IMG/VR virus record: IMGVR_UViG_3300008110_000503
Span: 1 to 21,205 of that record
Origin: a virus
Length of the DNA: 21,205 nt
Reading direction: 5' to 3' (one strand)
The notes under the pieces were generated by a model. The model made no database searches, was not told where the DNA came from, and saw nothing but the letters and a program-made list of their open reading frames with translations. The translations under genes and the position numbers were made by a program. Shown here one piece after another: positions 4,169-21,205 of this stretch (the first letter of the stretch is position 1; every line of letters begins with the position of its first letter).

Positions 4169-4625
4169 GTAGTTTTAACTCCGATAGGGGTTTGAGATTG
4201 GCGTGCGGCACAAAGAAGCAAGGCGGGTGTTGGCTGAACCTGTACTCATCCTTCTTGCCATCCTCGGCGTGAATCCATCCATGAATCGTATAGTCCGGGC
4301 AGCGGCCGGATACCGACACAACGATCCCGGTGTCGTCCGGTCGTATCTTGAGATCCTTCCGGCTCGACCACCGTACCTCTAGGTTGGTGTTTTCGATGTC
4401 AGGCACATGAAACGTGTTGACCCCGAATCCCCAATAGATCCCCAGCGTTTTGGCAACCGCAAGCTCGGCGTGTGCGGCCTCGATATGATATCCCCATAGC
4501 TCGCCAACCACCTTCTCGGGGAATCTGGGGTTACGGCGCATATAGCTCGCTTCCGCATTCCTGCGCATGCCAACGTATCCTGCGACCAGAATCTCGTTGG
4601 CGGTGAGCGTGACGTTTATCTCCAT
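4161..4625 (-). CDS. Hypothetical phage protein, possibly a degenerate PD-(D/E)XK-type fold
   Basis: About 154 aa from the ATG at 4625; a second ATG at 4643 would add six residues (MDHGAG). I prefer the former because it overlaps the 2OG gene by only 10 nt. An N-terminal helical part (AHAELAVAKTLGIYWGFG) leads into strand-like VPDIENTNLEVRW, then DLKIRPDDTGIVVSVSG and YTIHGWIHAEDGK. The order of helix, PDI...EVR and the following strands resembles nuclease-like phage proteins of the PD-(D/E)XK superfamily, but the usual (D/E)xK lysine is replaced by Arg in EVR, so activity is doubtful. It could also be a purely structural small fold. Confidence 0.65.
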   Translation of the reverse strand: MEINVTLTANEILVAGYVGMRRNAEASYMRRNPRFPEKVVGELWGYHIEAAHAELAVAKTLGIYWGFGVNTFHVPDIENTNLEVRWSSRKDLKIRPDDTGIVVSVSGRCPDYTIHGWIHAEDGKKDEYRFSQHPPCFFVPHANLKPLSELKLHD

Positions 4626-5197
4626 GCCGGCCCCGTGATCCATGCCACCAGCGCCCAGCGCGTACCGAGCAGTGGTGCCTTGGCCTTATGCTTAATCCAA
4701 GATGGGAAGAAGTTTGCCGACCCCTGATGCGTCGACTTTTCTACGCCATGCCAATCCGCCTCGACGCATAGCCCGCCGCCGACGTAATCCTCCGGCCGGG
4801 ACAGGTTCACTACGCATGTCATCTTGCGGTCGCTGCCGTCGTAGGTATCGAAATGCCATTTGAACTTCTGGAGCGGCCTGTACCTAAGCACCTGCAACTG
4901 CTGCATGTCCGATATGTCGAACCTGTAGTGTTCATTGTTAACCTCGGATACAACCGCTGCCAGATAATTATATACCCACTGGAAGTGCGGCGACTTGGGC
5001 AACCAGCATGACGCGCAGGTGCGGGTGCGGCTTGTCACGCGGCTGCCGTCCTTGGCAAGCACGGGCGCCCGGGTCATGCCGATGATCTCGGCGTCTCGGA
5101 TAATCATCTCGCACTGCGAGCGGGTGAATACTTCTGGGACCGTTACGGCCGTCAGGATCTTTTGCTTAAACGCTGCTTCTTGATTTGTGGTGTGCAT
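4616..5197 (-). CDS. 2OG-Fe(II) oxygenase (prolyl 4-hydroxylase-like)
   Basis: A 193-aa protein, typical in length for phage dioxygenases. The metal-binding facial triad is visible as HFD (H115, D117) and the distal H170 in FPSWIKHKA; R180 in LGTRWALVAWITGP matches the residue that holds the 2-oxoglutarate carboxylate. The surrounding LQVLRYRPLQKFKWHFDTYDG and the later GGLCVEADWHG fit the double-stranded beta-helix of the P4H/PKHD group. Such enzymes couple 2-oxoglutarate decarboxylation to hydroxylation of a substrate, here unknown (protein, base or small molecule). An AAAGGAGACAAGAA stretch before the ATG is one of the strongest ribosome-binding sites in the window. The C-terminus overlaps the next gene. 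Confidence 0.88.
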   Translation of the reverse strand: MHTTNQEAAFKQKILTAVTVPEVFTRSQCEMIIRDAEIIGMTRAPVLAKDGSRVTSRTRTCASCWLPKSPHFQWVYNYLAAVVSEVNNEHYRFDISDMQQLQVLRYRPLQKFKWHFDTYDGSDRKMTCVVNLSRPEDYVGGGLCVEADWHGVEKSTHQGSANFFPSWIKHKAKAPLLGTRWALVAWITGPAWR

Positions 5198-5832: not shown

Positions 5833-6050
5833 TTCTTTTTGTTCTTTCCTGAGCGGTCCTGACACCAAACCGCATACATGTTCCATAATTCTGCCGCATC
5901 CCTAGCGGCATCCTTTGTGTCAAACTCGTCATCGATCGGTGGCAATCCGTTTGGCGGTACCGCGCCCCATAGTCTTGGGCCTATCGGTTTGCCCATCATA
6001 GTCTCAAGCTTGTACTTGCCGTTTGCCTGAACAACTCGCACCGGTGTCAT
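5814..6050 (-). CDS. Hypothetical small protein, 78 aa
   Basis: Not recognised. The start overlaps the GT8 stop as ATGA and follows GAGGAAGAG. The N-terminal part looks like a short beta hairpin (VRVVQANGKYKLETMMGKPIG), a single helix AARDAAELWNMYAVW follows, and the last ten residues (SGKNKKKWSRRN) are strongly basic. The pattern of a tiny strand-helix domain with basic tail is common in phage accessory proteins that act on host nucleic-acid machinery, but that is inference only. Confidence 0.6.
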   Translation of the reverse strand: MTPVRVVQANGKYKLETMMGKPIGPRLWGAVPPNGLPPIDDEFDTKDAARDAAELWNMYAVWCQDRSGKNKKKWSRRN

Positions 6051-6712
6051 CGTATCTCTTCCTCAAGCTTCTTAATGTCCGACTCAATCTGCGTCCTAAG
6101 CTTGCTCATATCGTTCGATTGTCCGGCGTAGTGAATCATGTATGCGTCATGGTAACGATTGAGACCGAAGTGCTGCTCGACGCTGGTCATGCAGTTGTAG
6201 ACCGGGTCAAGTTCCTGAAGGTCCAGATCGCACAGATGCGCCATGATGTTCATCCATGTCTGCTCGGCAAAGTGATTGGGAAACAATCCGATGGGCGGCT
6301 GGGCGAAGATCCCGGCAACTTCTTTTGTCGCCACAAAGACCCCGGTGTTGACATAGAATCGCGGGTCGATCTTGTAACCAAAAGCTTTCGCTAGGGCAGC
6401 CATCCCCGGTTTTCGGTCGAGATATGACCCCTCGTCGAAAGCGCAGAACTTCTCGACATCCTTGGAGATATCCGGGCAGTCCAGCGCAACCAGCACATCA
6501 GCATCAAGGAAGGTGACGACATCGTAGCCCTTGGTCGTCATCAGGTGCGGGATAATCAGCTTGCTGTACTGCACCGGATGCGCCAGCGGCTTCTCGATGG
6601 AGATGAAGTCCTGTTCGTGCCTGCGGCAATACTCCTCCATGCGCGGCTTGGTAAGCTTGAGAACCTCCAGCCAATCGTCACCTAAAGCCTGAGTAAGTAC
6701 GACCTTCTTCAT
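6047..6712 (-). CDS. Glycosyltransferase family 8-like (GT-A fold)
   Basis: A 221-aa protein. Metal and nucleotide-sugar binding DAD is at residues 70-72 within VVTFLDADVLVAL; then RFYVNTGVFVATKE (118-131, NTG motif), HFAEQTWMN (147-155) and HYAGQ (194-198). This order (DxD, NTG, EQ, H..G) is the GT8 pattern, seen in glycogenin- and LgtC-like enzymes that move glucose or galactose from UDP-sugars. An ATG 12 nt upstream (MRDGMKK) exists; the chosen one at 6712 overlaps the preceding stop as ATGA. The protein may add sugar to host glycans, phage protein or modified DNA. The C-terminal helix KLRTQIESDIKKLEEEIR is probably a coiled coil. Confidence 0.82.
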   Translation of the reverse strand: MKKVVLTQALGDDWLEVLKLTKPRMEEYCRRHEQDFISIEKPLAHPVQYSKLIIPHLMTTKGYDVVTFLDADVLVALDCPDISKDVEKFCAFDEGSYLDRKPGMAALAKAFGYKIDPRFYVNTGVFVATKEVAGIFAQPPIGLFPNHFAEQTWMNIMAHLCDLDLQELDPVYNCMTSVEQHFGLNRYHDAYMIHYAGQSNDMSKLRTQIESDIKKLEEEIR

Positions 6713-6981
6713 ACCATCTCGCAAAGCTGGTAGTCAGCTTCTTCCAGCAGGAGTTGCGTCGCAAACTCCTTAAGATTCTCATCATCCTTAATCTGTTTGC
6801 CGTCGATCATGACTTCGATCCTAGATAGATCTATGTCATAAGGCACGTCGGCCATATAATGTTCACGGTGGCCCTGCGGCCCGATGTCAACCCGGTGAGT
6901 CTTGTAGATCACGTCTGCAAAAGCCGTGGCCTCCTTGCCTCCCCAGATAAATGTTACGGTTATGTCCTCCAGTTTCTTCAT
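6709..6981 (-). CDS. Hypothetical protein, 90 aa
   Basis: Not recognised. Start taken at the ATG at 6981 because AGAGGTACCAAG lies just upstream and the ATG overlaps the previous stop as ATGA; a farther upstream ATG (7014) would add eleven residues. The sequence has a beta-rich N-terminal half (ITVTFIWGGKEATAFADVIY), an HREHYMADVPYDIDLSRIEV segment and a final acidic helix ENLKEFATQLLLEEADYQ. It lies between the possible nucleotide hydrolase and the GT8 enzyme. Confidence 0.6.
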   Translation of the reverse strand: MKKLEDITVTFIWGGKEATAFADVIYKTHRVDIGPQGHREHYMADVPYDIDLSRIEVMIDGKQIKDDENLKEFATQLLLEEADYQLCEMV

Positions 6982-9449: not shown

Positions 9450-9661
9450 CGACTTTTTTTAAGCCCAGAATCTTCGTCGAAACACTGTAAAAGGCCCGCC
9501 CCGGTCATCTTCTTGGCTATATGCGGGTGCTGCCTTAGCCATTCCGCCGCCTGCTCCACCGAGCTACAATGAGCGACCTTGTCCTCGAACAAGCGCCAAG
9601 CCTGCTTGGGTGTCAGAGATCGTTTATGATGCGCCATGAGGAGCCGGTCTTTGGGTGGCAT
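9446..9661 (-). CDS. Hypothetical small protein, 71 aa
   Basis: Not recognised. The reading frame could start at GTG 9682, ATG 9661 or ATG 9637; I chose 9661 for an ATG with a purine-rich upstream stretch and moderate overlap (49 nt) with the PD-(D/E)XK gene. The translation is compact and helical: LTPKQAWRLFEDKV, VEQAAEWLRQHPHIAKKM, then GAGLLQCFDED. It ends in a poly-A run and a basic SR tail. A long overlap and an uncertain start make this one of the weaker gene calls, although it fills the only space between two genes. Confidence 0.5.
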   Translation of the reverse strand: MPPKDRLLMAHHKRSLTPKQAWRLFEDKVAHCSSVEQAAEWLRQHPHIAKKMTGAGLLQCFDEDSGLKKSR

Positions 9662-10011
9662 TTCTTCGTCTTCGTGCTGCACTCTTTTGTCTTAAAAATC
9701 CAATACAAATCAGCGTCGAGCGCGTAGCAGATGATGTAGTCAACATCGCTTTCCGAGTATCGTTTTTTCGCAAAGCACCCCGTGCCGGTGCAGAATCGGT
9801 AGAACACCCTGTTGAGCTCGGTGCCTTGCGTTGACTTCACCTGTATGCGAAAGAAGTTCCCGTTCTTCTCGGCCACAAGGTCATACCCCGAGAAATCCTC
9901 GACAGGGGTAAGCACGTTGTAGCCGTTGCGGAACAATGCCGCGATGACCTTGGCGACACCGACCGCCCCAATCTGCCTGTTCCCAAGCCTCATTTCTTTT
10001 GTTGACTCCAT
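9613..10011 (-). CDS. PD-(D/E)XK endonuclease-like protein (group I intron endonuclease-like family)
   Basis: A 132-aa protein. A helix GAVGVAKVIAALFRNGYNV leads into TPVEDFSGYDLVAEKNG (D44) and FFRIQVKST (Q57, K59). This spacing of YDLV then xQVKS matches the PDDEXK_5-type endonuclease domain, in which Gln takes the place of the acidic residue in (D/E/Q)xK. Later parts (DVDYIICYALDADLYWIF) fit the C-terminal strands. The usual N-terminal Glu is replaced by Val-Ala (GVAKV), so nuclease activity is not certain. It could act in recombination, DNA degradation or as a restriction-like nuclease. First gene of the leftward block, reading away from the plus-strand gene. Confidence 0.75.
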   Translation of the reverse strand: MESTKEMRLGNRQIGAVGVAKVIAALFRNGYNVLTPVEDFSGYDLVAEKNGNFFRIQVKSTQGTELNRVFYRFCTGTGCFAKKRYSESDVDYIICYALDADLYWIFKTKECSTKTKKCHPKTGSSWRIINDL

Positions 10012-10029
10012 TTCATTTTTTTATATTCT
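10002..10029 (+). promoter_or_regulatory. Sigma70-like promoter for the plus-strand exported protein
   Basis: TTGACT at 10002-10007 (5 of 6 to the consensus -35), 16-nt spacer, TATTCT at 10024-10029 (4 of 6 to TATAAT). The next 7 nt (AGCCCTA) lead straight to ATG at 10037. No Shine-Dalgarno exists in the gap, so the transcript is probably leaderless. Confidence 0.55.
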
Positions 10030-10052
10030 AGCCCTAATGAAAGCAACCTTAA
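10025..10052 (-). promoter_or_regulatory. Candidate leftward promoter sharing the -10 with the rightward one
   Basis: On the minus strand TAGAAT (10030-10025, 5 of 6 to TATAAT) overlaps the plus-strand TATTCT by five bases. The best -35 with 16-nt spacing is TTAAGG (10052-10047), only 3 of 6. +1 would fall close to 10018, leaving a very short leader before the ATG at 10011. The -10 overlap suggests a single symmetric, bidirectional promoter. Confidence 0.4.
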
Positions 10053-10483
10053 TTCTACTGTTAACAACCTCGGCATTATTCGCATGGGACGGCGAGGAGG
10101 AGTCCAACCGTCTCCTCGCCGAGACCAAAGCTAAAACCGAGGCGCTCTACGAAAGCCGCAGAAAGTCGGAAGAAATTACAGCGAACTTCACCGGGTCCAT
10201 GGTCGGCGGGAACGGCGCCACCCTGAGCCGCAATACCGCAATAACAGGAGACGGCCAATATGTTTCCTTTGATGGTAAGGGTTTCGCTACAACTGGAAAA
10301 TACTACGGGCATAGCAGGAATCAGAATTGGGGTAACGCTGAATACGTTGTTAGGTCGGGCAGCATGTACTACGGGTCATCCTTGGTATGGCAAACTCAGG
10401 GGGCATTCTTCAGGCTTAACGATGCCAAGCCGTCCTATGTGGTTACTTCGCCCGGGGTATCCGCTTCTATGCGGAAGCCCTGA
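10037..10483 (+). CDS. Small exported protein of unknown function (148 aa, signal peptide)
   Basis: The only plus-strand gene. The open frame reaches further back to 9926, but that part overlaps the nuclease gene antisense and lacks a promoter, so ATG 10037 is preferred. It begins with a clear Sec signal peptide, MKATLILLLTTSALFA, with a likely AxA-type cleavage after LFA, before WDGEEE. Residues about 17-45 form an acidic/basic amphipathic helix (likely coiled coil); the remainder is Gly/Ser/Tyr-rich and probably beta, with NAEYVVRSGSMYYGSS and ends SASMRKP. No lipobox Cys. The gene may encode a periplasmic or virion-associated factor, superinfection exclusion, or lysis helper; no family recognised. 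It overlaps the muramidase gene tail to tail by 17 nt. Confidence 0.75.
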   Translation: MKATLILLLTTSALFAWDGEEESNRLLAETKAKTEALYESRRKSEEITANFTGSMVGGNGATLSRNTAITGDGQYVSFDGKGFATTGKYYGHSRNQNWGNAEYVVRSGSMYYGSSLVWQTQGAFFRLNDAKPSYVVTSPGVSASMRKP

Positions 10484-10498
10484 ACTGCCCGAAGGCAG
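10460..10498. terminator. Paired hairpins at the convergent gene ends (possible weak bidirectional terminator)
   Basis: Two hairpins lie in the convergent overlap. One is TCCGC-TTCTAT-GCGGA (10460-10475). The other is CTGCC-CGAA-GGCAG on plus (10485-10498), which on the minus strand becomes CTGCC-TTCG-GGCAG, a stable cUUCGg tetraloop hairpin. Neither is followed by a strong T tract, so intrinsic termination is only suggested. Confidence 0.3.
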
Positions 10499-11309
10499 CA
10501 TTGCGATTCATAACCCGGTTTTCTAGCCCCGGGTAAAACTTCTCGCGCCTTGCGTCCTTTGCCTTTAGTTGGCGCTCGTAATTCAACTGCTCGAGGCTTA
10601 CCCTGCGCATAAGGTCAGCGGGGTTTTCCTGTTTCAACTTGTCAAGCGTTACGGGACCAAGCACGCCGTCGTCCTTTAATCCCATTGCCCTCTGGAGAAA
10701 CTTAACCGATCCCGTCGGACCGCGATTAAAGGCTAGATCCTGAAAGAAAGGCCGGTAGGTTTCTGGCAACTTGGATGTAACCGGCTCAGTATATTTCACG
10801 ATATAATTAAGCGCATAAGCCTCGCGCTCTTCCGGCGGCAGATCGCGCAAAGTCTTTGCGGCCTCGGGATGATACTTGTCGTTGATCCCGGCCACCTCGT
10901 AAGTCCCGCCCATGTCTCCGCTCGGCAGAGGGTAAACGGCTAGATTGCCCTGCTTGTCGCGGCGAGCCTCCCAATTAAGGGTCTTCTTGGCGGCGTCGAA
11001 AAGACTGCCGGAGAACACGCCACCACCGGCGTCAGGCATCTTGGGGCCAACAAACGACGGCGAGGATTCGATCGAGCTTCTTATTTGTCTTTGCATAATG
11101 TCTCCTTCCAGATCCTTAAACCTTGCAGCAGACCGCATTCTCTCTGCGATGTCAACCTTTTGCTGTGCCTTCTCCCCGCCGGCCCAACTACCACTCGCCA
11201 TGTCCGAGAAACCAAAATACTTCTTGCCAACCTCATCCCTGATAGCGTCGTTGGTAACCCTTTCGTCAATCTTTTTGGGCAGCCTCGATGACAGTTGTGG
11301 GGCGGCCAT
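10467..11309 (-). CDS. GH108-like N-acetylmuramidase with extended N-terminus
   Basis: A 280-aa protein. Residues about 103-250 match a GH108-type glycan hydrolase: LNWEARRD with the probable catalytic E114, GGTYEVAGINDKYHPEAA (134-151), the DLAFNRG motif (191-197), and a small PG-binding-like part VKFLQRAMGLKDDGVLGPVTL (202-222). Such domains cut the glycan backbone of peptidoglycan. The first ~100 residues (Ser/Ala-rich, charged, no signal peptide) are an extension not usual for a lysis endolysin, so this may be a virion-associated murein hydrolase as much as the endolysin. The gene starts with TAATG coupling to the ejection protein and a GGAGGG ribosome-binding site. No obvious holin gene is adjacent. 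Confidence 0.78.
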   Translation of the reverse strand: MAAPQLSSRLPKKIDERVTNDAIRDEVGKKYFGFSDMASGSWAGGEKAQQKVDIAERMRSAARFKDLEGDIMQRQIRSSIESSPSFVGPKMPDAGGGVFSGSLFDAAKKTLNWEARRDKQGNLAVYPLPSGDMGGTYEVAGINDKYHPEAAKTLRDLPPEEREAYALNYIVKYTEPVTSKLPETYRPFFQDLAFNRGPTGSVKFLQRAMGLKDDGVLGPVTLDKLKQENPADLMRRVSLEQLNYERQLKAKDARREKFYPGLENRVMNRNAAFGQFRASA

Positions 11310-13426
11310 TATCGTCCCTCCACGTCTCGCCTGACCATCTCCTGTTTAAGTTCTTCCGCGAAGGCGGCCATGTCAGGGTCATCTGTATCGCTCGCAATGG
11401 TAGACAGCGCACCGATAACACCTGATGCTCTGGAAATTGGTTTATCGATATTTCCTGCCAACCATTCAACAAATTTAGGATTTGTATAAAGTCTTGCGGC
11501 CTGCCTTGCCCCAACAAGAGTACCAATTACACCACTGGCAAAGCCAAACTTGCCTGCTGCTACACCACCCCCAACGGCCATTGCAGAACCAATAGCTCCG
11601 CCAGCAGCCGCCGTACCCGGAGGATTGGCGAGAACCTGAGAAGCCTTGTCGATCTTGTCTGCGACAGTCGCAATCTTCTGTAAATCCTGCTGGAACTTGC
11701 TGCCAAAGCGACCGAACAGCACCTGCCTAGATGCCTTGTCTAGCTTATTATAATTAGTAAGGAAAGTTCGGCTGCTGAATAATTCGCCGGTTTCGTCTTG
11801 CATCCCCGGAGCAACTCGACCCATGCGATTGACGAAGGCGGAAACCACGGCCTTTTGGTCATCCTTCGGAATTGAGCGCAGCATCGCGGTAAGTTTTGTC
11901 GGGCCTTCGGCAGCATTGCTAAGGATATTGCGATAAATTTCGTCCGGGTTGTTACGGCTAAGGGTATCCTGAACCATATCCATTCGGTCGTGAAATGCGC
12001 GGGTAAAGTTATTTGCCCTATCAAATGCTTGCTTTGTTTTATCGAAGCCAGAAACGGCCGAATCAAAGTCTTCCGAAAGCGCCTTGTATAGCGCCTTAAC
12101 CTGCGCCCGGGGAAAATCTGGCGTGAGATCAACGTTTGAAAGTTTCTCTCCGGCCCAAGCCCTAAGATCGCGCATGGTCGAAAGAGGTATTTCGCCCAGC
12201 TCGTTTTTCCCGCCTGCAATCGCGTCTTGTATCGACATTAACTGCTTATTGCCAAGCTCGGTCCTAAGCTCTGGTGTATCCCTAAATCTTTGAAGCACGT
12301 CATCAAGTGCTTGCTGCGTGCGAGTAGGTTGTATGCGCACAAGAGCCGGAGGTATTAGTGAATCTGCCTTATCGTAAAGCGCCTTTTGAGTAGCCCTTGC
12401 GCGTGGCACAAAAACCTCCGTGAATCCCTTCTTGGCTCCACGACCAACAATATAAGGCTCTTTAACCCTTGAGATTTGACCGCGAAGTTCTTGCACCCTT
12501 TCACCAATTTCCTGTTGTTGCGTGAATGCTTTTTCACGCATTGTAGCGAATGCGCTTGGGAATCTTCCTGCGGTGCTTTCAAGTTGTTGGATGTTTGCGG
12601 AACCTGTCATTTGACCAACAGAAGGAGTAGTCCCTGCCGCCCTGAATTCGCCAAGAGTTTTCGCGAGTTCCTCCTGAGACTTGCCGCCCCTAAATAATCT
12701 GATCGTTGCGGCCCGAGTAGGCTCTGTTGCACCGGCCAAAGATATCGCCGGAACAAGCGACTTGCTAACGCCAAATTCTGCGGCTTTTCTGCCAACTTCC
12801 GCCATGCGTGCGGCCGATCCCGGGGCTAATCCTCCTGCAAGTGTCGCAACCGTCTGCCCAACAGGACCGGCGCCCTGCTCTTCCGCAATCGCTCCTGCGG
12901 CTGCTCCCGAAGCAGCCGAAGCGCCCTGAACTACCGGAGAACGGGCAAGCTCCTGACCAACTGCACGAAGAGCGGGGCTTTTAGCTGCTGCTGTAAGCAT
13001 GCGTCCAGCCTGTACCCCCGGGATGGCTGCGGTCGCACCCTGAATTACCCTTTCCTGCAAGCGCTCTGCGCCAGTTTCAGGCTTAGGCAATCCAATAGCG
13101 TTTTTAGCTTCTTCCAGAATATCGTTAACGCTTCTTGCGTTTGGATCTCCGCTAAGAGCCTTGTAAATTTCTGATCCAATGTTTGTGATGAGACCCGCAA
13201 CTCCACCCGCCTGTGCGCCAGCACCCGGCGCACGCATCGGAAGACCTGCAAGCGCACCGGCCGCCATCCCGACAGTTTCAGGGGTTGCGGCAGCCCTTCC
13301 AATCAGGGCCAATTCCCTGCCTACGGTTTGCGCAAAAGAACGATCCTTTTGGCCGTCGATCGGCTCAGATCCGGCCTTGGATTCCCTTAACTTAATCTCT
13401 TCTTCGCTTAGTGGTTTAAACGCCAT
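11309..13426 (-). CDS. Large internal virion/DNA ejection protein, 705 aa
   Basis: Location next to a muralytic enzyme and behind the tail genes, and composition, suggest an ejected internal core protein (the role of T7 gp14-gp16, P22 gp7/16/20). Gly/Ala-rich, non-polar segments occur at roughly 50-80 and 155-210, and the longest at 601-645 (GTAAAGGAIGSAMAVGGG and onward), which could insert in a membrane. Between them is a long, charged, mostly helical middle (about 220-600), with coiled-coil-like stretches such as QQQEIGERVQELRGQI. There is no clear enzymatic motif. Starts with GGAGCCGTAAG before ATG, just 1 nt after the preceding stop. Confidence 0.65.
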   Translation of the reverse strand: MAFKPLSEEEIKLRESKAGSEPIDGQKDRSFAQTVGRELALIGRAAATPETVGMAAGALAGLPMRAPGAGAQAGGVAGLITNIGSEIYKALSGDPNARSVNDILEEAKNAIGLPKPETGAERLQERVIQGATAAIPGVQAGRMLTAAAKSPALRAVGQELARSPVVQGASAASGAAAGAIAEEQGAGPVGQTVATLAGGLAPGSAARMAEVGRKAAEFGVSKSLVPAISLAGATEPTRAATIRLFRGGKSQEELAKTLGEFRAAGTTPSVGQMTGSANIQQLESTAGRFPSAFATMREKAFTQQQEIGERVQELRGQISRVKEPYIVGRGAKKGFTEVFVPRARATQKALYDKADSLIPPALVRIQPTRTQQALDDVLQRFRDTPELRTELGNKQLMSIQDAIAGGKNELGEIPLSTMRDLRAWAGEKLSNVDLTPDFPRAQVKALYKALSEDFDSAVSGFDKTKQAFDRANNFTRAFHDRMDMVQDTLSRNNPDEIYRNILSNAAEGPTKLTAMLRSIPKDDQKAVVSAFVNRMGRVAPGMQDETGELFSSRTFLTNYNKLDKASRQVLFGRFGSKFQQDLQKIATVADKIDKASQVLANPPGTAAAGGAIGSAMAVGGGVAAGKFGFASGVIGTLVGARQAARLYTNPKFVEWLAGNIDKPISRASGVIGALSTIASDTDDPDMAAFAEELKQEMVRRDVEGR

Positions 13427-13427
13427 C

Positions 13428-14699
13428 TTACGGCTCCAGTGTTCCCATTACTCCACCGATATTAACCAAATCACCGTCTTTGTATCCGGCCGCTCTGGCT
13501 GCCTCTTCGCTATCAAATGATGGCATTGCAGGCGCACGTCTTGTTTCGCCGGCGGCCTCTGGGGCGGCAAGAGTTATTTTCGGTCCGGCAACGTCGATAT
13601 CTTCTGGGTCGGAGTATGCGTCAAACACTGGTTGCAGGCTGTTTACATTAAATCCAGCAGCCCTTGCCCTTGTGGTAAAGTCGCGCTTTACAACTCGGCT
13701 AAGTTCGATAAGCCTGTCTCTTGAGGCAAAGTTAATAAAGTCGGTCGGGTTGGCAACGGCTGCCTGCAAGAATTCGCGCTCTGCATCGCTCAACTGACCG
13801 CCACCGGTAAGAGGAACGCGCAAGCTTGCGACGAGAGGAGTTCTGATCAGATCAGCGCGACGCTGTACGCGCAACAATGCTTGGCCCTGAAGATTGGACG
13901 GAAGTTCTCGCTTGATCCTGTCGGCTTCATCTCCAAGCGCAAGCAGGGCGTTGATTTGGCTTACCGAGTTAACCATCCCTGCGGTTCTTTCGCGCATGTC
14001 CTTTGCGATTGCCGTGTCTGGCGCGAATCCATCTAGCCCACGAACCTTTAGCGTATTATCAAGCTCGCGCTTGGTTTGGAGGTTAAACCAAGGCTTGATT
14101 TCCTTGGCGGCCGCCGCCTTGGCAGAAGCCTCTTCCGGCGTGCGCGAATTCTTAATGTCCGCGTCAAGGTCGCCAAGCAACTTGGTCGTCTCCTGATAAC
14201 GCCTTTTGGCTACCGAGGTTGTATCGCTTGCCGGAGCGGAGCCGTAGAATTCCCCAAGATTAACCGATCCCTCAAGACCCTCGCGCTGCTTGCGAATTGC
14301 CTCAAGCTCGCCGCCAATACGCGCCACACGGGCGCGGGCTAAATCCTGCTGTTCGAGCAACTGTTGCCCGGTTGAGATCGCAAGATCCTCCGGCATGACC
14401 GGGCCAGCAGAACCGGCCGGTAACGGAGTTGCAGCAGCCCGAACATTGGCAGCGCGTGTTCCTAGCCTTTCGGCCAGACCGCGCTGCGATGCCAAATCCT
14501 GCTCAACTTCCAAAGACCTTTGCGCAAGCTCGCCTGCGCGTTGGATTTGATACTCGGGGTCTTTGCGACGCGCCTCCATAAGATTAAGCGCAGCCTGCTC
14601 CCTTTCGAGCATGTCTTTTTCTAGCTCTGCCTGCTTCCTAGCCTTATACGCGTCGCTCTCGTAGAGCGTAATGGGTCCGTATGAGATTCTGTCGGCCAT
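13428..14699 (-). CDS. Coiled-coil internal virion protein, 423 aa
   Basis: Mostly helical and charged. Residues about 12-170 are rich in Glu, Arg and Ala with several coiled-coil segments (ELEKDMLEREQAALNLMEAR; ARIGGELEAIRKQREGLEG). Residues about 300-345 contain GGGQLSDAEREFLQAAV, a segment that occurs in several phage structural proteins. A small C-terminal module, SFDSEEAARAAGYKDGDLVNIGG, is a common phage end motif (strand, helix, GD, strand). Synteny between the tail proteins and the 705-aa protein suggests a virion structural or ejection role, but no named family is visible. Ribosome-binding site is weak (AAGATG about 11 nt upstream). Confidence 0.6.
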   Translation of the reverse strand: MADRISYGPITLYESDAYKARKQAELEKDMLEREQAALNLMEARRKDPEYQIQRAGELAQRSLEVEQDLASQRGLAERLGTRAANVRAAATPLPAGSAGPVMPEDLAISTGQQLLEQQDLARARVARIGGELEAIRKQREGLEGSVNLGEFYGSAPASDTTSVAKRRYQETTKLLGDLDADIKNSRTPEEASAKAAAAKEIKPWFNLQTKRELDNTLKVRGLDGFAPDTAIAKDMRERTAGMVNSVSQINALLALGDEADRIKRELPSNLQGQALLRVQRRADLIRTPLVASLRVPLTGGGQLSDAEREFLQAAVANPTDFINFASRDRLIELSRVVKRDFTTRARAAGFNVNSLQPVFDAYSDPEDIDVAGPKITLAAPEAAGETRRAPAMPSFDSEEAARAAGYKDGDLVNIGGVMGTLEP

Positions 14700-14703
14700 G
14701 ATA

Positions 14704-16281
14704 TTAGGACATCTTGAACGGCGTCAGCATGCTACCAATACCAGAAGCAACCTGCCCGAAGGCTTGGAACGGACTTGTGTAGGTGCTGGCAATCGCACCG
14801 ACCTGAGATCCATACATGCTCGCTTGCGCATTCTGCATCGTGTTATAGATGCTGGCCGCATTGCCAGCAAGCTGAACCGGAATCTCAGGGCTTGCGGTCT
14901 GATAGAACGGAACCTGATTGGCCTGCACGTTGAACTGCCCGGGTTGGGCCACGTTTGCGTTGATATAGTTCTGGAACTGCGCCTGTTGTTGGCCGATGCG
15001 CTGCTGGGCGAGGTTTGCCAAGCTTGGGCCACCCGCCAAGAAGCCGGAAGCAGCGCCAAGACGTTCGCGGGTGAGAGCATCGCGGAAGGCAAGATCGCGT
15101 TGCAAAGCGCCTCCGGTCGTTTCGCCGGAAGCTAAGAACTGCTGCGCCGCCCCGTAACGCGCAAGCTTGCGTTGTTCCCCGGCGGCACCCAACTGCGCCG
15201 CTTCCTGCACTGCCGGTCCAAGGCCGAAGATGTTGCCACGGGCGGTCTGGGCGGCACGCACGGCCTGTTCGTATCCACGCCTTTCCTCGGCTCCCAAGGT
15301 CGAGCCAAGGCGAAGCTGGTTAAGTGCTTCCTGCTCGATAGTGTTGCGTAGTTGCTCGGTCTGCGGAGTCGTCGTCGCAGGCAACTCTTCCGTCGCAAGC
15401 TGACGATAGCGTTGTCCGAGACCAACTGCGGTCTTGTAGGATTCTGGGTCGATTTGCCTGAGTTGTTCGCCAGCGCGCTCTTCGGGCAGCTTGACAAATT
15501 CGCGGAAGGACGTGATTTCTTTCAGGCCATCTTCGCTATCAGCGGTGATAGGCTTGTAATTCTTTACCTGCTCGCTCGCCTTGGTAACCGCACCCTGCAC
15601 GCTGGCAAGGTCTGATTTTAACTGGTCGATGGAAACCTTGGCGGACGTACGTCGAGGATCGCCTGACGGCAAACCAGCCAGCAATTCTTCTGAGGCCGCA
15701 AGCCGACTTTGAATGCCGGCGATCTGGGCGGTTCCGTCTTCGACAATGCGGTTCAGCCGGCCGAGGCGGGTAGAATTGTAGTCGTCCAAAATCTGTTGGT
15801 CGGAGACTTGGAAGTTAAGTTTCGTTCCAAGATCGGAAGCGCCGTAGTTCCTGCCAGAGCTAAGTTGAGTAAGTGCTTGGTTCAAGTCTGTTCCTCCACC
15901 GCGACGCACCCCTCCGGTAAGGCCAGCGATTTGGTCTGCAAGTGTATTATACTGCCCCTCTCGGTTTGCGAGATCCGCCAGCTGTTGTTCGTAAGTTTCC
16001 CTTAATTTTGCACTCTGCTGGTTTTGTTGTTTTGATGCAGCATTCTGTGCCTCTAAAAGCGTCTTAAATACATTATCGCCCTTAACGGCTTTTTTGTATG
16101 CATTTACGGAAGGAGTTGATGCCGCATAGCCAAGAGTATAATTTCTTGACCCTCCGTTTCGCTCTGGAGGGGTTATAGTCTCAACCGTTCCATCGTCGTT
16201 TAATTTATATCTTACAAGAGAGTTCATGGCGTTTATCTCTCGCTCTCTTGGCGTGGGACCGTATTTGCCTATCGCTGCCAT
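14704..16281 (-). CDS. Internal virion protein, Gln/Ala-rich, 525 aa
   Basis: A long low-complexity helical protein: Gln, Ala, Ser and Leu dominate. Coiled-coil stretches appear about 75-125 (QQNQQSAKLRETYEQQLADL) and 185-250. The C-terminal 130 residues (FLAGGPSLANLAQQRIGQQQ and onward) are Gln/Gly/Ala-rich, with NAASIYNTMQNAQASMYGSQ, and look like scaffold or ejection-type protein. Position in the tail-to-lysozyme stretch and lack of domain motifs suggest a structural role. Start chosen at MAAIGKYG, 1 nt after the preceding stop codon and preceded by AGGGCGAGATTTAGT. Confidence 0.6.
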   Translation of the reverse strand: MAAIGKYGPTPREREINAMNSLVRYKLNDDGTVETITPPERNGGSRNYTLGYAASTPSVNAYKKAVKGDNVFKTLLEAQNAASKQQNQQSAKLRETYEQQLADLANREGQYNTLADQIAGLTGGVRRGGGTDLNQALTQLSSGRNYGASDLGTKLNFQVSDQQILDDYNSTRLGRLNRIVEDGTAQIAGIQSRLAASEELLAGLPSGDPRRTSAKVSIDQLKSDLASVQGAVTKASEQVKNYKPITADSEDGLKEITSFREFVKLPEERAGEQLRQIDPESYKTAVGLGQRYRQLATEELPATTTPQTEQLRNTIEQEALNQLRLGSTLGAEERRGYEQAVRAAQTARGNIFGLGPAVQEAAQLGAAGEQRKLARYGAAQQFLASGETTGGALQRDLAFRDALTRERLGAASGFLAGGPSLANLAQQRIGQQQAQFQNYINANVAQPGQFNVQANQVPFYQTASPEIPVQLAGNAASIYNTMQNAQASMYGSQVGAIASTYTSPFQAFGQVASGIGSMLTPFKMS

Positions 16282-20032: not shown

Positions 20033-21205
20033 CTATCTTGCTCTGGCGTATTTGAAGGGTGATTCGGCGAAGGCTGCGAAGATGTAGGTTCCGCCGCTTG
20101 CGTTATTATCTGCTGATGAATCCCTAAGCTTAACTCCATTTGAATTTATATCCATGACAGAACCAGAAAACTCTGCATTTGATAGATGCGGGAATAAAGC
20201 TTTGCCGGAAAGATTGAATGTATCTCTTGCTGTATCAAGAATGTTCCAAGCCCCGGTTGTATTATATCTTTTCCATAAAAAAAATCTCGGCCTAAAACCA
20301 CACCACACAAAAGGCCCGTCTGCCGAACCGTTGCCGGTGTAGCTTCCAAACTTGGAGTAACCTTCGATTTCGGAGAAACAGTAGGCGATCTCTGTCCAAT
20401 TATTAGGGAATCCTCCGCTACCAATATAAAATACTGAAGATGTTGGAGAAGTATTTTGCCATATTAAATTATCAGTAATTGCTCCGGTTGTTGAGTTTAA
20501 TACAAGATATTTATTTGCACCAGATCCCTCATGGTACACATACCAATCATTTGCGTTATTTCTTGGTTTTGTAATAATCATTTTTGGTGAAACTCCCAAG
20601 CCATGACCAACAGTTGAATTTGCACCGGTTGCAGTAAAACTCACAACACTAAACCCAGTTTGTTGATTCGCTCTAACCGTGCTGGCTATTGAGCCGGACG
20701 TGTTGGTTGAAGTGGTTGAGCCCGCATCCCAAGACCAAGCAACATATTGCGTTCCGCTTGTGTTGACCAAGCTGCTTGTGCCAATAGTGAATCCAGCAGA
20801 ATCAAATGCAGTAAGACCGCTTGAGCTAGTAACCTCTACCGCAGTGCTGTTACTGGAAATTTGCGCCTGCGTTCCTCTTGTGGTGTCGTAAAGCGCGTGG
20901 TCTGTCGTCGTCCCGCGATTTTTAATCCACACCAGATCCGGGCTGAAGCCAAGGCTGGAGATGGCATTGGATGCGCCGGTGCCGGTGTAGGTCAAGGCAT
21001 CCATATACTTATTCGGCTTTTGGATCGTTGGCTGGGGTAGGTTCTGGGTGCAGAGAGTTTTGAAACCTGTTGGAGCGGCGTAGGCGAAAGTGCGTTGGCC
21101 GAAGTTGCAATTAACAACACCCTCACCCTGAATAAATGCAGTCCATTGAGATCCAGCAATGTCTGTGAAAGCTGTTCCCTGTGATGTTCCGTTTTTGTAA
21201 AAAAC
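20033..21205 (-). CDS. Tail fibre/spike: SPRY-like segment plus DUF7483-type domain (N-terminus beyond window)
   Basis: The frame is open to the right edge (390 residues visible); the ATG at 21004 is internal. Upstream of it the translation reads VFYKNGTSQGTAFTDIAGSQ, then NCNFGQRTFAYAAPTGF and LCTQNLPQPTI, the core of SPRY-like phage domains. Downstream comes a DUF7483-like region with LVWIKNRGTTTDHALYDTTRG, FTIGTSSLVNTSGTQYVAWS, GHGLGVSPKMIITKPR, YSKFGSYTGNGSADGPFVWC and GFRPRFFLWK. Proteins of this kind occur as phage fibre or virion adhesion proteins. Receptor-binding is an inference from position next to the tail genes. The first part of the protein lies outside the window. Confidence 0.82.
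   Translation of the reverse strand, partial: VFYKNGTSQGTAFTDIAGSQWTAFIQGEGVVNCNFGQRTFAYAAPTGFKTLCTQNLPQPTIQKPNKYMDALTYTGTGASNAISSLGFSPDLVWIKNRGTTTDHALYDTTRGTQAQISSNSTAVEVTSSSGLTAFDSAGFTIGTSSLVNTSGTQYVAWSWDAGSTTSTNTSGSIASTVRANQQTGFSVVSFTATGANSTVGHGLGVSPKMIITKPRNNANDWYVYHEGSGANKYLVLNSTTGAITDNLIWQNTSPTSSVFYIGSGGFPNNWTEIAYCFSEIEGYSKFGSYTGNGSADGPFVWCGFRPRFFLWKRYNTTGAWNILDTARDTFNLSGKALFPHLSNAEFSGSVMDINSNGVKLRDSSADNNASGGTYIFAAFAESPFKYARAR

Follow-up and report, generated by a model that had tools for sequence, protein, structure and literature searches.

A hypervariable, predicted exported protein with an exchangeable mature domain at the muramidase–nuclease junction of uncultured phages

The window, i.e. 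the whole stretch of viral DNA analysed here, spans 21,205 nt (IMG/VR record IMGVR_UViG_3300008110_000503, positions 1 to 21,205). All of its plausible genes point left except the one at 10037-10483, which encodes a 148-aa protein with the N-terminus MKATLILLLTTSALFA and lies between a nuclease gene and a muramidase-like gene. The features of this junction are as follows.

9613-10011, minus strand: PDDEXK_5 nuclease gene, a conserved divergent neighbour whose start overlaps the promoter region
10002-10029, plus strand: predicted promoter, -35 TTGACT at 10002-10007, spacer of 16, -10 TATTCT at 10024-10029, with the ATG at about +1
10037-10483, plus strand: gene for the predicted exported 148-aa protein, from its ATG start to the stop codon at 10481-10483
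10037-10084, plus strand: signal-peptide-like segment MKATLILLLTTSALFA (residues 1-16, by sequence), at the end of which lies the 5' recombination seam of the family
10094-10204, plus strand: long predicted helix (residues 20-56, structure model m9a80a2823d33), in the window type only
10217-10417, plus strand: predicted all-beta repeat domain (residues 61-127, from the model), homologous to other types
10467-10483: tail-to-tail overlap of the 148-aa gene and the muramidase gene, 17 nt
10467-11309, minus strand: muramidase-like gene with a PG_binding_3 domain (PHROG endolysin), a conserved neighbour

An earlier, sequence-only reading of this DNA had proposed a lone exported protein with its own -35 and -10 from 10002 and a 17-nt overlap with the convergent muramidase gene; the overlap is exact, 10002 is the first base of TTGACT, and TATTCT ends at 10029. 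Its remark that every other gene points left is right as far as the plausible genes of the window go, but in near-complete relatives a distinct block of small genes shares the strand of the exported gene. Such blocks lie away from the exported gene, at 7.1-9.0 kb in G001, 8.0-9.8 kb in G003, 24.4-26.2 kb in G004 and 27.8-30.6 kb in G008, and in longer relatives the direction of the exported gene is shared with apparent early genes, in a block several kb away. G005 and G006 have a minority-strand block of small genes, the last protein of which has a hydrophobic start. Elsewhere on the minus strand of the window there are two glycosyltransferase-like genes (1678-2775 and 6047-6724; family 9, E 6e-8, and a sub-threshold family 8 match, E 1e-4) with possible envelope-modifying functions, a 2OG-Fe(II) oxygenase domain protein (4616-5197, E 2e-11) and a DUF7483 protein (20033-21205, E 4e-112), cut by the window end, which is possibly a tail or host-contact protein.

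The 10037-10483 gene is real and selected as coding. Its close relatives L004-L007, roughly 90-93% identical in nucleotides over the alignment, differ from the window ORF at 8-9 synonymous versus 1-3 nonsynonymous codons, with nearly all changes at third positions, and this synonymous excess among strain variants indicates that selection acts on the frame as a coding one. Conservation of the antisense frame only, which would have spoken against a gene here, was checked in the same variants, and the changes proved to be mostly synonymous in the plus-strand frame.

Judged from sequence, the protein has a signal-peptide-like start, consisting of MK, a hydrophobic stretch, a small residue at -1 and no cysteine, and such a start is found in all family members, which agrees with the proposed export. 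The window protein has no lipobox cysteine, nor a cysteine anywhere in its 148 aa, and no second membrane anchor appeared in sequence or model, both of which give a single N-terminal hydrophobic segment. The order of helix then beta, suggested earlier from the letters, is reproduced by structure prediction: the model of the window type (pLDDT 72) has a 37-residue helix and about 10 strands, with the last 21 residues unreliable, and that helix is absent from other types in the family alignment. For L084, a repeat-rich representative, the model (pLDDT 85.7) has a short helix and 12 short strands. Foldseek against the PDB gave nothing at E under 1e-3, the best match in the VIA structure search was the NalP barrel at Z 5.1, in a range that the tool calls common, and BFVD gave one weak short match only. 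Since the structure matches are without significance, we name the predicted fold only as an all-beta repeat domain and leave its topology open; the repeats first suggested a parallel beta-solenoid, but the structural matches listed are up-and-down barrels and Rhs-type sheets. The BFVD entry, A0A6J5Q382 (68 aa, from an uncultured Caudovirales phage, without annotated function), matches the L084 model with Foldseek probability 1.00 over 42 columns at 28% identity but an E-value of only 0.12, and is probably a short member of the exported-protein family.

The sequence-only reading had recognised nothing in the mature sequence, and searches of named families, structures and isolated phages gave the same answer: the window protein has no match in Pfam, PHROGs, NCBIfam, the PDB or isolated-phage records, and three further mature types have none in isolated phages. 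Scans of the family profile for named families returned nothing significant and no enzyme-like domain or motif, and Rfam gave no match. When hosts were sought by two scans of genome contigs with phage genes, only one distant match (29%) was obtained, in an Acidobacteria MAG.

With the window protein as query only near-identical copies were recovered, and the family alignment was too variable as bait; the baits used to gather relatives from metagenomic viral loci were therefore neighbours, namely the muramidase, the PDDEXK_5 nuclease and one structural protein. A homologous exported protein was found on the opposite strand between the muramidase and PDDEXK genes in 131 loci, with 69 distinct proteins; as some of these loci are fragments of a single contig, de-duplication reduces the number to 76. 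The gene order in relatives is ejection-type proteins, muramidase, converging exported gene and nuclease, with the stop codons of the exported and muramidase genes within about 20 nt. The ejection-type proteins beside the muramidase in these loci (11309-16281 in the window) fall into at least three size classes, in which the largest protein has about 700, 1030-1220 or 1350-1580 aa, and these are shuffled among phages with similar structural proteins. Homology of the window type to the others was seen with a mature-domain profile from which the window type and all signal peptides had been left out: run against every ORF in the loci, it picked out the window protein at E 1.4e-9. It was seen also with hhalign (96.9% probability, E 1.8e-10). 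Only two profile matches fell outside our own list (L143 and L219), also at the muramidase end; in each of four near-complete relatives the profile picks out one gene, and a tblastn search with one type gave matches in six contigs, at a single place in each.

In the clade L022-L037 and G009, muramidase and nuclease abut, without the exported gene and without the TTGAC element described below, and the exported gene is missing at the junction in two more distant integrase-bearing relatives. The junction was thus compared in related phages for gain or loss, as the sequence-only reading had suggested: the gene is present there in most relatives found, and its absence is clade-wide rather than sporadic. 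The gene is conserved in position and single-copy, with a conserved promoter. A set of seven contigs (G001-G004 and G007-G009), all but one with the exported gene, yielded no integrase, making a role in lysogenic conversion less likely. In the more distant contigs of L209 and L218 (G005 and G006) a tyrosine integrase lies a few kb from the nuclease gene.

Within 9600-11000 the site at 10002-10029 is the sole promoter-like site, and no plus-strand terminator-like site was found. By consensus alone the promoter is at chance level (1 found versus 0.8 expected in shuffles); support for it comes from the conservation of TTGAC, since 58 of the 59 distinct upstream sequences have it at 34-38 nt, most often 35, from the ATG. 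The motif is at this distance in all 18 upstream representatives less than 80% identical, compared with a mean of 0.35 and at most 3 in shuffles. Those relatives without the exported gene that were checked, namely G005, G006 and six L022-L037 loci, lack it at the matching place in front of the nuclease, so it goes with the exported gene and not with the nuclease. The claim that the gene has its own promoter is borne out by this conservation. The spacing of -35 and -10 to the ATG puts the start codon near the predicted transcription start (~+1), and the message is probably leaderless or nearly so; GGAG precedes the ATG in some relatives. From the promoter alone, we infer that expression would be early.

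The mature domain is a cassette that is swapped at the end of the signal peptide, with purifying selection within types. With a cut-off of <50% identity between mature domains there are at least 18 types, and mean pairwise identity is 0.34 for the mature domain, whereas the catalytic part of the muramidase and the adjacent nuclease both have 0.64 and the three genes that follow about 0.77. In L087 and L109 the nuclease and signal peptide are 100% identical and the upstream region 97% at the nucleotide level, while the mature part is at 50%, about the value for unrelated sequences under the alignment used; the pairs L106/L137 and L076/L135 likewise combine a near-identical flank with a divergent mature part. 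Promoter and nuclease are held in common by different mature domains in 24 type combinations, and in seven both flanking genes are >85% identical with a different mature part, in one of these the signal peptide too. The 5' breakpoints are concentrated at 44-59 nt past the ATG, i.e. at the signal-peptide end, in pairs that are not independent of each other. The sequence-only reading had guessed at lateral acquisition of the gene; this is not supported for the whole gene, and what moves laterally is the mature domain. Within types dN/dS is 0.05-0.25, and the metagenome 3300023179 alone holds five types (T0, T2, T8, T10 and T15). Taken as sequence patterns, these values indicate that diversity is favoured between types and constrained within them.

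A single-copy gene with its own promoter and an export signal, hypervariable, and without an integrase in seven contigs, is best read as a superinfection-exclusion-like factor, early and periplasmic, whose mature domains are type-specific, a reading to which we give a probability of about 0.4. In this model, a small exported protein would be made early from a host-type promoter, with its start codon at about +1, and expression would need no other phage product. Upon Sec export and cleavage, the mature domain would act in the envelope of the infected cell and block the entry of further phages, each type having a different target, which may be the muramidase of a virion, one of the ejection proteins or a surface receptor. 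That many types coexist and are traded would then be explained by competition between phages circulating together. The separately timed factor, for example for exclusion, of the sequence-only reading is thus plausible, given the conserved promoter and the export-like start. We count the five types in one metagenome for this reading, and also the precedent of early periplasmic exclusion proteins such as T4 Spackle (PMC7677548). Against it stand the lack of homology to a known exclusion protein and the one clade and two distant relatives without the gene; moreover, hypervariability would also fit a host-directed factor.

T4 Spackle (gp61.3) is small, early and periplasmic, has a cleaved export signal and acts in superinfection exclusion against the virion lysozyme; its fold is a disulfide-containing helical bundle, and conservation among its homologs is generally good (PMC7677548). 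The window gene resembles it in the export-like start, the separate promoter and the adjoining muramidase gene, whereas the family is predicted to be all-beta and is hypervariable. The window protein, modelled as helix plus beta and without cysteine, lacks the compact disulfide-bonded helical bundle of Spackle, and no significant sequence or profile match tied it to a named family, Spackle included. We regard Spackle as the nearest precedent in logic and, as the folds differ, claim no family membership. Exclusion lipoproteins such as Llp of T5 and Cor of phi80 and N15 are also small exported phage proteins acting in the cell envelope; the window protein differs in having no lipobox cysteine and no similarity to any isolated phage record. 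Exclusion in T5 is the subject of PMC9586334. Receptor-binding and tail-fibre modules of phages have a conserved start, an exchanged variable part and many types, as the exported family does, but here the variable part is exported and non-virion-looking and has its own promoter. The locus might be a phage 'type' locus, in which a fixed promoter and signal peptide form a socket for recombined, divergent mature domains with serotype-like, mutually distinct exclusion specificities, a more specific proposal that we hold as doubtful. In the literature searched, at the level of titles and abstracts, no direct precedent for hypervariable or leaderless exclusion genes was found.

The muramidase next door suggests two other explanations. 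The protein may be a cognate periplasmic inhibitor of the phage's own putative virion muramidase, which would limit peptidoglycan damage by superinfecting virions, with Spackle as the precedent (PMC7677548); this would be a specific form of the exclusion-like reading. The gene is adjacent and convergent, and the mature type tracks the muramidase side more closely than that of the nuclease, both by nearest neighbours of the same type (62/76 versus 33/76) and by partial rank correlation (0.335 versus 0.154). However, a seam located at the signal peptide would lead one to expect this trend from linkage even if no function were involved. Among 220 locus pairs whose muramidases are >85% identical, 70 have mature domains <40% identical; the predicted beta fold also differs from the Spackle bundle, and we consider such an inhibitor unlikely. 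Nor was a strict pairing of mature type found with the ejection-protein module, one ejection-protein type occurring with several mature types and vice versa, or with tail genes, compared in 13 loci only. A place beside the muramidase would also suit a component of lysis, either spanin-like or a lysis regulator, as would the hydrophobic start and the long helix of the window type; but the gene is on the opposite strand with its own host-type promoter, neither spanin architecture (anchor plus lipoprotein, or two anchors) is present, the long helix is missing in other types, and such frequent exchange would not be expected of lysis parts, which makes this explanation improbable.

The main alternative to exclusion, though itself not a likely one, is a host-directed secreted factor that modifies the envelope, changes a receptor or defends against host surface factors, and that diversified as hosts differ. 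Export, hypervariability and type exchange would all fit it, and the same phages carry glycosyltransferase-like genes. The absence of an enzyme-like domain or motif argues against it, as does the occurrence of several types in one sample, although selection driven by hosts and by phages is not separated by the latter. A sporadically acquired moron, along the lines of the sequence-only reading, would explain the separate promoter and the orientation opposite to the neighbours, but most relatives found have the same junction occupied, presence among close relatives is not sporadic, and the promoter is conserved over deep divergence, so that we give this origin very little weight.

Phages sharing a habitat can exclude each other, though little is known about how the specificity of exclusion diversifies in nature. 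The family described here is absent from the libraries searched and tied to one site, where the mature half is traded and the promoter and export signal stay fixed. If the protein is an exclusion factor, natural phages alike in all but the mature half would make the exchange of specificity directly testable; if it is not, the locus would still mark a hypervariable exported factor in uncultured phages.
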